Source of the DNA: Oscillospiraceae bacterium
GTDB lineage: Bacteria; Bacillota; Clostridia; Monoglobales; WRAG01
NCBI GenBank assembly: GCA_009780345.1
Contig: WRAG01000014.1
Coordinates: 1 to 49,831, forward strand
Direction of reading: 5' to 3'
Length of the DNA: 49,831 nt
Under the pieces are notes generated by a model, which worked only from the letters and a program-made list of their open reading frames with translations, ran no database searches and was not told where the DNA came from. A program made the position numbers and the translations under genes. How positions within the stretch are numbered: position 1 is the first letter of the stretch; each line of letters starts with the position of its first letter. This document shows, piece by piece, positions 47,000 through 49,546 of the stretch.

Positions 47000-47740
47000 T
47001 CACCCCTGCCTTTCATATATCTCATTAATCTCGTCCGAATACTCGCCATTTTCGTTATACACATACAACGGCGGATCGAGAAACAGCTTCGGCTTCCCAT
47101 ACTTCGCCGCTTCAATCAACACCAAATTCGCCGTTTTACCCGGCTTGGGGTGAACCATTCGCAATCGCTTAGGCTCCAACCGATTCTGCCGCATTAGCGT
47201 CAGCAAATCCACCAATCGCTCGGGACGGTGAACCATACAAAGTCGTCCGCCCTCTCGAAGCAGCTTCGCCGAAACCGAAATAATATCGGATAGCGTACAC
47301 TTTACCTCATGCCGCGCAATGGTAAGCGCGTCCGCCTCATTAACAAGCCCGCCTCCCGCCTCCTTATACGGCGGATTGCAGGTGACAATGTCGAATGAGT
47401 TTGCCGACAAAATCTCACCGCAATTTTTCAAATCATCGCATATAATCTCCACTCGTCTCTGCAAACCGTTAAGTTCAACATTCCGCTGCGCTAAGTCAGC
47501 AACATCCGATTGAATCTCCACGCCGACAATATGATGTGCCTCTGTTTTCGCCGTAAGCAAAACAGGAATAATCCCATTTCCGCAACACAAATCCAAAATT
47601 TTGTCCGGCTGCTTCCCTTTAGACGTCGAAGCATAGTTCGCTAACAAAACAGCGTCCACCCCGAAGCAGAAATGGTCGCTGTTTTGAATAAGTTTTAAAT
47701 TATTGATTTGCAAATCGTCGATTCGTTCTATATAGCTCAC
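47000..47740 (-). CDS. trmN6: tRNA1(Val) (adenine37-N6)-methyltransferase-like protein
   Basis: 246 residues, TrmN6/YfiC family N6-adenine methyltransferase. RIDDLQINNLKLIQNSDHFC, FGVDAVLLANYA at the N-terminus; SAM motif DKILDLCCGNGIIPVLLTAK (about 45-65); catalytic NPPY in DIVTCNPPYKEAGGGLVNE (about 118-136). Start appears to be GTG 47740, whose ribosome site region (TCCGTTCGAGC on the plus strand) borders the left inverted repeat of the DUF559 cassette at 47755; the cassette has probably replaced the original upstream region. Coupled to rsmI, 3 bases downstream. Confidence 0.88.
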   Translation of the reverse strand: MSYIERIDDLQINNLKLIQNSDHFCFGVDAVLLANYASTSKGKQPDKILDLCCGNGIIPVLLTAKTEAHHIVGVEIQSDVADLAQRNVELNGLQRRVEIICDDLKNCGEILSANSFDIVTCNPPYKEAGGGLVNEADALTIARHEVKCTLSDIISVSAKLLREGGRLCMVHRPERLVDLLTLMRQNRLEPKRLRMVHPKPGKTANLVLIEAAKYGKPKLFLDPPLYVYNENGEYSDEINEIYERQG

Positions 47741-47754
47741 TCCGTTCGAGCATA

Positions 47755-47800
47755 GGCTCCTTTGGCAAAGGAGCTGTCAGCGAAGATGACTGAGGATTGT
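47755..47800 (+). repeat. Left terminal inverted repeat of the DUF559 cassette
   Basis: Starts GGCTCCTTTGGCAAAGGAGC, continues with the small hairpin GTCAGCGAAGATGAC and ends TGAGGATTGT. It covers the stop codon of the DUF559 gene at 47777-47779. Confidence 0.85.
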
Positions 47801-48136
47801 CTTTTCAATACTTTGACAAACGCCCTCAAAATTATTCTCTATATCTCTGTTAGAAAAGCGAAGCACATGAATATCTAACGAATTCAAGTATTCCGTTCTT
47901 AAAACATCATATTCTGCCGTTTCCTCTTTATAATGTTGTGAACCGTCAAGTTCAATTACCAATTTAGCGTTCGGACAATAAAAATCAACGATATAATTTT
48001 CGATAATTCTTTGTCTGTAAAACTGCAAATTATGTTTTTTAAGAAAATCGTACCATAAACGATTTTCTTGTTTTGTTGTGTTGTTACGAAGAATATTAGA
48101 TTTTGTTTTTAGATTTTTGTTTCTTGGTAAAATCAT
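47777..48136 (-). CDS. DUF559 endonuclease-domain protein
   Basis: 119 residues of the DUF559 family (PF04480; Vsr/PD-(D/E)XK-like restriction-endonuclease fold). KLKTKSNIL-like basic start (NLKTKSNILRNNTTKQENRL), WYDFLKKHNLQFYRQRIIEN, YIVDFYCPNAKLVIELDGSQ (the VDFYC Asp and IELDGSQH Glu/Asp are the presumed active site), HYKEETAEYDVLRTEYLNSL, DIHVLRFSNRDIENNFEGVC. Intact. GGAGG at 48146-48142, within the right inverted repeat, is the ribosome binding site. Biological role of the family is unknown; its place between inverted repeats suggests a nuclease that helps its own cassette spread, which is inference. Confidence 0.88.
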   Translation of the reverse strand: MILPRNKNLKTKSNILRNNTTKQENRLWYDFLKKHNLQFYRQRIIENYIVDFYCPNAKLVIELDGSQHYKEETAEYDVLRTEYLNSLDIHVLRFSNRDIENNFEGVCQSIEKTILSHLR

Positions 48137-48184
48137 ACAATCCTCCGTCAGGCTTCGCCTGCCACCTCCTTTGCCAAAGGAGGC
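48137..48184 (-). repeat. Right terminal inverted repeat of the DUF559 cassette
   Basis: On the minus strand it starts GCCTCCTTTGGCAAAGGAGG, continues with hairpin CAGGCGAAGCCTG and ends CGGAGGATTGT next to the DUF559 ATG. The inner hairpin has a different sequence from that of the left repeat but the same fold. Confidence 0.85.
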
Positions 48185-48187
48185 TTT

Positions 48188-49546
48188 CTAATTCTTCAAA
48201 CTACTAATCGGCGCGGGAATCCGCCCGCCTCTGCCGATAAAGTCCGCGCTGCTAAACTCACTCACCGGCATAATCGGCGCCGAGCCGAGCAACCCGCCGT
48301 AATCAAGCCGCTCGCCCGGTTTATATCCAACCGCCGGAATAATCCGCACCGCGGTCGTTTTATTGTTTATAACCCCGATCGCCATCTCGTCCGCAATAAT
48401 CGCCGAAATGGTCTCAGCAGACGCATTTCCGTCCACCGCAATCATATCAAGCCCAACCGAACACACGCAAGTCATGGCTTCCAGCTTATCAAGCGACAAA
48501 GCTCCAAGTTCCACAGCCGCAATCATGCCCGCGTCCTCACTGACCGGAATAAACGCGCCCGAAAGTCCGCCGACATGTCCCGACGCCATAACGCCGCCCT
48601 TTTTCACCGCATCGTTAAGCAACGCAAGCGCGGCCGTCGTTCCGTGCGTCCCGCATTTCTCGATTCCCATCTCTTCCAATATATAAGCAACGCTATCCCC
48701 AACAAGCGGCGTCGGCGCAAGGGATAAATCAACGATTCCGAACGGCACGCCAAGCATTTCGGACGCTTCCTTGCCCACCAATTGCCCCATTCGGGTAATC
48801 TTAAACGCCGTTTTTTTGATGGTCTCGGCGACAACATCAAACGGCTCGCCTTTCACCTGCTCAAGCGCCGATTTCACAACGCCCGGCCCGCTAACCCCAA
48901 CGTTTATCACACATTCGCCCTCGCCCGTACCATGAAACGCGCCCGCCATAAACGGATTATCCTCAACCGCATTCGCGAACACCACAAACTTCGCGCAACC
49001 GATACAACTATCTTTTTGCGTAAGCTGGGCAGTAGAAACAATCATCCTGCCAATGTCCGCAACCGCGTCCATATTGATTCCCGCCTTGGTTGACGCCACA
49101 TTCACCGACGAACATACCAAATTAGTGTTCGCCAACGCCGCCGGAATGGATTTTATAAACTCCACATCGTTTTTGGTGTACCCCTTATCCACAAGCGCCG
49201 AATATCCGCCGATAAAGTTCACTCCAACCGTCTCTGCCGCCCTCTGCAACGCCTGCGCGAGCAAAACATAATCGTCGCTTGAATATTTCCCGCCGATAAG
49301 CGATACGGGCGTAACCGAAATCCGCTTATTTATAATAGGAATTCCATACTTCGCCTCAATTGCCTCGCCGCTTGAAACCAAATCTTTGGCATAACGGGTA
49401 ATTTTATCATAAACCGCCTCGGCGGTATCCTTAACATTGCCTCGCGCGCAATCCAAAAGAGATATCCCCATTGTAACCGTTCGGATATCCAAATGCTCCT
49501 CGCGCAGCATTTTTATGGTCTGTAGAATTTCGTTAGTGTTTATCAT
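48188..49546 (-). CDS. UPF0210 (PFL family, DUF711) protein
   Basis: 452 residues, the normal length of UPF0210 proteins, which are related by structure to glycyl-radical PFL-like barrels but lack the glycyl radical. [141 protein letters not shown] small ACT-domain partner (UPF0237) is often adjacent, but the next DNA upstream here is mosaic repeat. AGGAGGT-type site (GGGAGGT) before the ATG. Function not known. The DUF559 cassette lies 3 bases after its stop. Confidence 0.92.

Follow-up and report, generated by a model that had tools for sequence, protein, structure and literature searches.

The DUF559 cassette and its ends

How a gene for a small nuclease might move without a transposase is the question raised by one locus in a 49,831-nucleotide contig of an Oscillospiraceae bacterium (WRAG01000014.1, assembly GCA_009780345.1), a stretch that was analysed whole and is called the window here. 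On its minus strand, at 47777..48136, lies a gene for a 119-aa nuclease of the DUF559 family (PF04480, Pfam E=3.4e-30). An earlier note, made from the DNA letters, had described this gene as a compact mobile cassette, enclosed by inverted repeats that carry palindromes and that supply both its ribosome binding site and its stop codon. This description of the gene and its repeats is correct. A search with the covariance model R1 placed an R-type two-hairpin repeat, the right end, at 47753..47800 on the plus strand, 3' of the gene (47.2 bits, E=3.2e-9), and an L-type two-hairpin repeat, the left end, at 48137..48186 on the minus strand, 5' of the gene (52.4 bits, E=1.6e-10, with its own sequence in the training set of the model). 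The two repeats, of about 48 nt, are inverted, and a repeat search of the window matched them over 27 nt at 89% and over 14 nt at 93%.

Both repeats follow a common plan, in which a first hairpin (H1), its 5' arm made of pyrimidines and its 3' arm of purines, is followed by a second hairpin (H2) and then by a tail that echoes the purine arm of H1. The R-type repeat is composed of H1 GGCTCCTTTGGCAAAGGAGC, H2 TGTCAGCGAAGATGACTG and the tail GAGGATTGT; the L-type repeat is composed of H1 GCCTCCTTTGGCAAAGGAGG, H2 TGGCAGGCGAAGCCTGAC and the tail GGAGGATTGT. The H1 palindromes, given without strand, are CTCCTTTGGCAAAGGAG at 47757..47773 and CTCCTTTGCCAAAGGAG at 48166..48182, and the palindrome CTCCTTTGSCAAAGGAG has 2 matches in the window versus 0.08 expected from shuffles. 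The second hairpin is unlike on the two sides (TGGCAGGCGAAGCCTGAC and TGTCAGCGAAGATGAC), and the proposal that its arms differ while its fold is preserved was borne out: an H2 stem of at least 5 bp was found in 85% of 100 homologous repeats versus 22% of shuffles, and the H2 arms of these 100 repeats comprise 43 different sequences. By this comparison H2 is conserved in fold, not in sequence.

The tail of the L-type repeat is the ribosome binding site of the DUF559 gene, with GGAGG at 48142..48146 on the minus strand and a spacing of 5 nt to the ATG, and the TGA stop codon (47777..47779, minus strand) is located in H2 of the R-type repeat. Two genes flank the cassette from outside, both on the minus strand: the UPF0210 neighbour of the earlier note, confirmed as a DUF711/UPF0210 gene at 48188..49546 (PF05167, E=2.1e-190), whose stop starts 2 bases beyond the L-type repeat, and a small methyltransferase gene at 47000..47740 (PF05175, E=5.2e-14), which the earlier note had named trmN6. 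The order along the minus strand is UPF0210/DUF711, L-type repeat, DUF559, R-type repeat and methyltransferase.

The nuclease

The DUF559 match scores 104.5 bits against a curated cut-off of 20.6. In Pfam the cassette protein matches only DUF559 and a related nuclease model, MTES_1575, with no HUH Y1 transposase, and inside the cassette the reading of an element without a transposase stands. An AlphaFold model of the protein (pLDDT 85.7) was compared with solved structures by Foldseek. The closest was 3HRL, the N. gonorrhoeae protein NGO0050, which also belongs to DUF559; the next was 3R3P, the catalytic domain of I-Bth0305I (E=1e-5, TM-score 0.82 by target length), and Vsr was a weaker match. 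The E. coli member YcjD had earlier been placed beside Vsr in the PD-(D/E)XK superfamily (PMC1189080).

The active-site residues of the 119-aa protein are E24, D51, E62, D64 and H68. R17, E24, Q42, D51, E62, D64 and G65 do not vary among the 95 homologues compared, a set that includes YcjD and the N. gonorrhoeae protein, and H68 is conserved in 99%. The PD-(D/E)XK/Vsr-type active site is intact by this conservation, and because it is kept over such a wide range of homologues it argues for an active enzyme. The Pfam matches and the AlphaFold model describe a single domain, without a separate DNA-recognition domain.

Repeat copies in the genome

The 2.05-Mb genome contains the exact H1 hairpin 18 times, with two of these occurrences flanking the DUF559 gene, and the hairpin is absent from 50 other genomes of the order. 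Since the genome holds a single DUF559 gene, gene-less repeat copies exist, and they share the exact hairpin of the cassette. The covariance model finds 33 repeat copies in this genome; the repeat-only copies whose search had been proposed are thus dispersed around it, beyond this locus. At the loci read, gene-less copies stand singly or as inverted pairs, and the pairs always combine an R-type repeat with the other, L-like type; no pair of two R-type repeats was seen among them. In four gene-less pairs the tails face each other at a distance of 6-15 nt, and in the remaining pairs the H1 hairpins face. The repeats have no match in Rfam and therefore belong to no curated RNA family.

A chance origin of the repeats was ruled out by shuffles, by the flanks of control genes and by the genome-specific hairpin counts. 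A pure terminator function was likewise rejected; the repeats are terminator-like in places, but the second hairpin, the genome-specific barcode and the mobility would be left unexplained. At one locus of this genome (L011, about 1420-1475) another repeat type, CCACCCCGTC...CACCCCTCCACAGAGGGG, adjoins an R-type copy, and it resembles the repeats that flank DUF559 genes of Bacteroidota.

Repeats at DUF559 genes of other bacteria

Homologues came from a single scan over 84,980 species genomes and from whole-genome searches, and their flanks were tested for a local inverted match with a score of at least 14, in which 95 DUF559 genes were set against 225 other ORFs from the same loci. Strong inverted flanks were found at 64% of the DUF559 loci versus 0.4% of the control ORFs, and mismatched DUF559 flanks gave strong inverted matches in 16%; about one third of the 95 loci have no strong flanking inverted repeat at this score. 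At the DUF559 loci read, the repeat sequence varies between genomes while the plan is kept. The hosts include Clostridia, Bacteroidota, Balneolaceae, Ignavibacteriales, Elusimicrobiota, a Buchananbacteria (CPR) genome, Rickettsiales and another alphaproteobacterium. Furthermore, DUF559 genes on plasmids, or in records filed as plasmids, lie between inverted or direct repeats in Pseudanabaena, Picosynechococcus, Deinococcus, Sphingomonas and Neisseria gonorrhoeae. The copies of Sinorhizobium, Photobacterium, Azospirillum, Pseudomonas and E. coli failed the flank test.

Homologues elsewhere thus carry such repeats in many phyla, and the pairing of DUF559 with repeats is, on the evidence of these flanks, general. 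A link between DUF559 or YcjD and these repeats was not found in the literature searched, in which subscription journals were mostly outside coverage. Cyanobacterial plasmid DUF559 genes at three loci adjoin DUF1156 or BREX pglX methyltransferase genes.

Empty sites and in-frame insertions

A comparison with empty sites had been proposed as a check, and a cassette-free site was found upstream of malQ. The cassette is present there in two species (G033 and G034) and cleanly absent from a near relative (G047). The flanks of G047 and G034 agree at 98% along 44 nt to one side of the site and at 90% along 1.4 kb to the other. The site measures 19 nt in G047 versus about 470 in G034, which gives about 450 bp extra. 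No long target duplication was seen in this comparison; a 6-bp TAATAC stands on both outer sides in G034 and is a possible short duplication. By genome comparison, here and at the in-frame sites described below, the cassette was either gained or precisely lost as a unit. The reading as a mobile cassette is supported by this empty site, by the dispersed gene-less repeats and by the homologues with repeats.

DUF559 is also found in frame within larger proteins, whose ORFs we take, from reading the proteins, to encode IleRS, LeuRS, MetH and RecG. Such insertions occur in IleRS of Rickettsiales and other alphaproteobacteria, in MetH of two Ignavibacteria-like genomes, in LeuRS of two Bacteroidota and in RecG of Lacinutrix, and the inserts bear repeat-coded linkers, for example PHPNPLPSRERE. 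Within one family (that of genome G060), 4 genomes have no insert at the IleRS site, 3 carry DUF559 there in an insert of 145-158 aa, and 1 carries a 30-aa insert made of repeat only.

The editing-region loop of IleRS, read at six loci, is an insertion hot spot in a single bacterial family; a DUF559 cassette, a repeat-only unit, a different REP-type unit (RHSREGGNP...DPRLRGDD) and a GNAT-like ORF were found in frame at about the same codon. In a Rickettsiales IleRS, an in-frame DUF559 is followed downstream by an in-frame stretch like a GNAT acetyltransferase. At the 3' end of malQ, three related genomes carry three different hairpin repeats at one place, as if the repeats replaced terminators or acted as such. 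This difference at the 3' end was considered as a repeat-only insertion and rejected, being not clean.

Gene-repeat co-occurrence and the source of mobility

Across 51 genomes of the order, dispersed copies were counted after two repeats had been subtracted per cassette. At least 2 dispersed copies were found in 13 of 16 genomes with a full-length DUF559 gene versus 14 of 35 without one (Fisher p=0.0065), and a rank test gave p=0.0025 for the same genomes; the covariance model was built partly from these flanks, and the genomes are related, with kinship left uncorrected in both values. Some genomes are rich in repeats with no DUF559 detected (G017 with 112 copies, G027 with 96, G029 with 80 and G007 with 79), so that either the gene was lost after the spread or another mobiliser exists. 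Such genomes would fit persistence after loss and equally allow another mobiliser.

The cassette is probably a single-gene mobile element that behaves much like REP/RAYT systems, in which the only enzyme is DUF559, a PD-(D/E)XK nuclease resembling Vsr and homing endonucleases. As far as genome comparison goes, the gene travels with two unlike two-hairpin ends, L-type and R-type, and the position of the cassette varies between genomes, one of which lacks it at a site that otherwise matches. We infer that DUF559 is the mobilising enzyme. Folded back as single-stranded or extruded DNA, such as would arise on the lagging strand or in a cruciform or triplex, the repeats would be recognised and nicked by DUF559, and the break could start copying or excision. 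A copied or excised cassette, or a short gene-less L/R pair or unit, would then be inserted at a new position, usually intergenic and occasionally in frame inside a gene, with the joining done by the enzyme or by host repair.

It seems unlikely that DUF559 is instead a passenger, captured between two MITE- or REP-type repeats that are moved in trans, for example by an IS200/IS605-type Y1 transposase. Hairpin ends and little target duplication are typical of IS200/IS605, repeat-rich genomes without DUF559 exist as described, and this genome has one Y1_Tnp gene of the IS200 type, away from the DUF559 cassette. Yet no such repeats lie near that gene (L127), and Y1_Tnp is absent from seven repeat-rich genomes (G022, G019, G017, G027, G029, G007 and G033), because of which a Y1 transposase is not the mobiliser as a rule; as a general candidate it was weakened on both counts. 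Capture would moreover have to recur by coincidence, the same family being found with matching repeats in many phyla, and the nuclease site has been kept intact. The Y1 transposase gene of this genome has an in-frame TAA within the match.

Homing, by which DUF559 would cut the empty allele and homologous repair would copy the cassette in, in the manner of free-standing homing endonuclease genes, leaves the dispersed repeats as degraded leftovers and is rather improbable. Apart from a DUF559 protein, the nearest solved relative is the I-Bth0305I catalytic domain; several genomes of one family share a single IleRS codon as the insertion site, and pairs of genomes share the regions entered in LeuRS and MetH. 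Empty malQ and IleRS sites exist, as allelic spread would have it, yet the cassettes and the 18 exact-hairpin repeats occupy many unrelated sites within and between genomes, and allelic conversion does not account for near-identical short repeats; the one-domain protein also has no separate part for DNA recognition. Dispersal to unrelated sites therefore fits simple homing poorly, despite the fold shared with a homing endonuclease, and at intergenic sites it resembles the spread of REP/RAYT elements more closely than homing between alleles. Least of all is it to be expected that DUF559 is a domesticated repair or structure-specific nuclease acting on hairpin or triplex repeats, which would gather nearby for regulation without any movement. 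This would suit the Vsr-like fold, the published link of triplex-type repeats to genome instability (PMC4666352) and the service of the repeats as a ribosome binding site and, in places, as terminator-like hairpins, but the gene relocates with its ends, as the empty malQ site and the insertions in IleRS, LeuRS, MetH and RecG indicate.

Relation to known elements

The proposed DUF559 element resembles the REP/REPIN-RAYT systems (REPtrons). In both, a single-copy partner gene lies between inverted palindromic repeats, each gene has its own repeat sequence, and the same genome holds many gene-less repeats, often as inverted pairs, mostly intergenic and sometimes within genes. The DUF559 system would work like REP/RAYT, but it falls outside that family because it has no HUH Y1 enzyme: the partner is a PD-(D/E)XK nuclease and not the HUH tyrosine transposase TnpA_REP. 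Unlike a REP, the repeat here has two hairpins and a purine tail. The GTAG tag was not seen in the repeat copies read; GGAG is present in the arms and tail of the flanking repeats.

With Vsr-like homing endonucleases such as I-Bth0305I the element shares the fold and the habit of a mobile gene that encodes only a nuclease, whereas dispersed repeat ends and repeat-only copies, and the lack of an intron or intein and of a separate recognition domain, set it apart from the I-Bth0305I type. Palindromic repeats in frame within protein genes are a further likeness, to the Rickettsia palindromic elements (RPE) and the CGTC-tagged REPs, for which no dedicated transposase is known (PMC3733652); the sequence tag here is different.

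If DUF559 moves the repeats, a role would be assigned to a widespread family of unknown function, an enzyme would be found for a large class of orphan repeats, and bacteria would possess a mobility chemistry distinct from that of known transposases. By entering tRNA synthetases, MetH and RecG in frame, the insertions would also supply proteins with new domains. Proof of the enzyme's role would establish a new class of mobile element.

E. coli ycjD and the BoxC/PIT repeats

BoxC/PIT-type repeats, which are short and palindromic, have been familiar since the 1990s, and no means by which they spread is known. Like these BoxC/PIT/TM_ECO repeats, the repeats at DUF559 genes combine a pyrimidine arm with its purine complement and one more purine copy, and they occur dispersed; this architecture of triplex type was judged by reading the repeats at many DUF559 loci, the triplex itself being predicted. 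Both are dispersed, intergenic and arranged in inverted pairs of two unlike types; in E. coli BoxC/PIT pairs, type A always stands with type B (PMC4666352). Holder et al. (2015) described 23 TM_ECO in MG1655, near which a mobility gene was never found (PMC4666352). Unlike the repeats as published there, those described here have a nuclease gene as their regular partner.

In E. coli strains that include MG1655, YcjD carries the DUF559 annotation, and 3365 of 5426 complete E. coli genomes have the region. Since K-12 has this member, the proposed role of DUF559 is directly testable. Whether the prokaryotes hold a new class of mobile element, in which a PD-(D/E)XK nuclease of about 120 residues is the sole mobility enzyme and spreads itself together with large populations of gene-less triplex/two-hairpin repeats, appears evenly balanced; in such a class DUF559 would be the missing BoxC/PIT mobiliser across many phyla, YcjD a member accessible in the laboratory, and essential genes would receive in-frame insertions. 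BoxC/TM_ECO-type repeats are located 3' of ycjD, no matching repeat was found upstream (flank score 8, the inverted-flank test failing), and the apparent link of ycjD to repeats in E. coli is one of neighbourhood only. ycjD was rejected as a clean empty-site case, strains without it carrying eefRABCD there (PMC12817139). At the three E. coli loci read, the site between sapF and fabI is occupied either by ycjD or by the eefRABCD operon.
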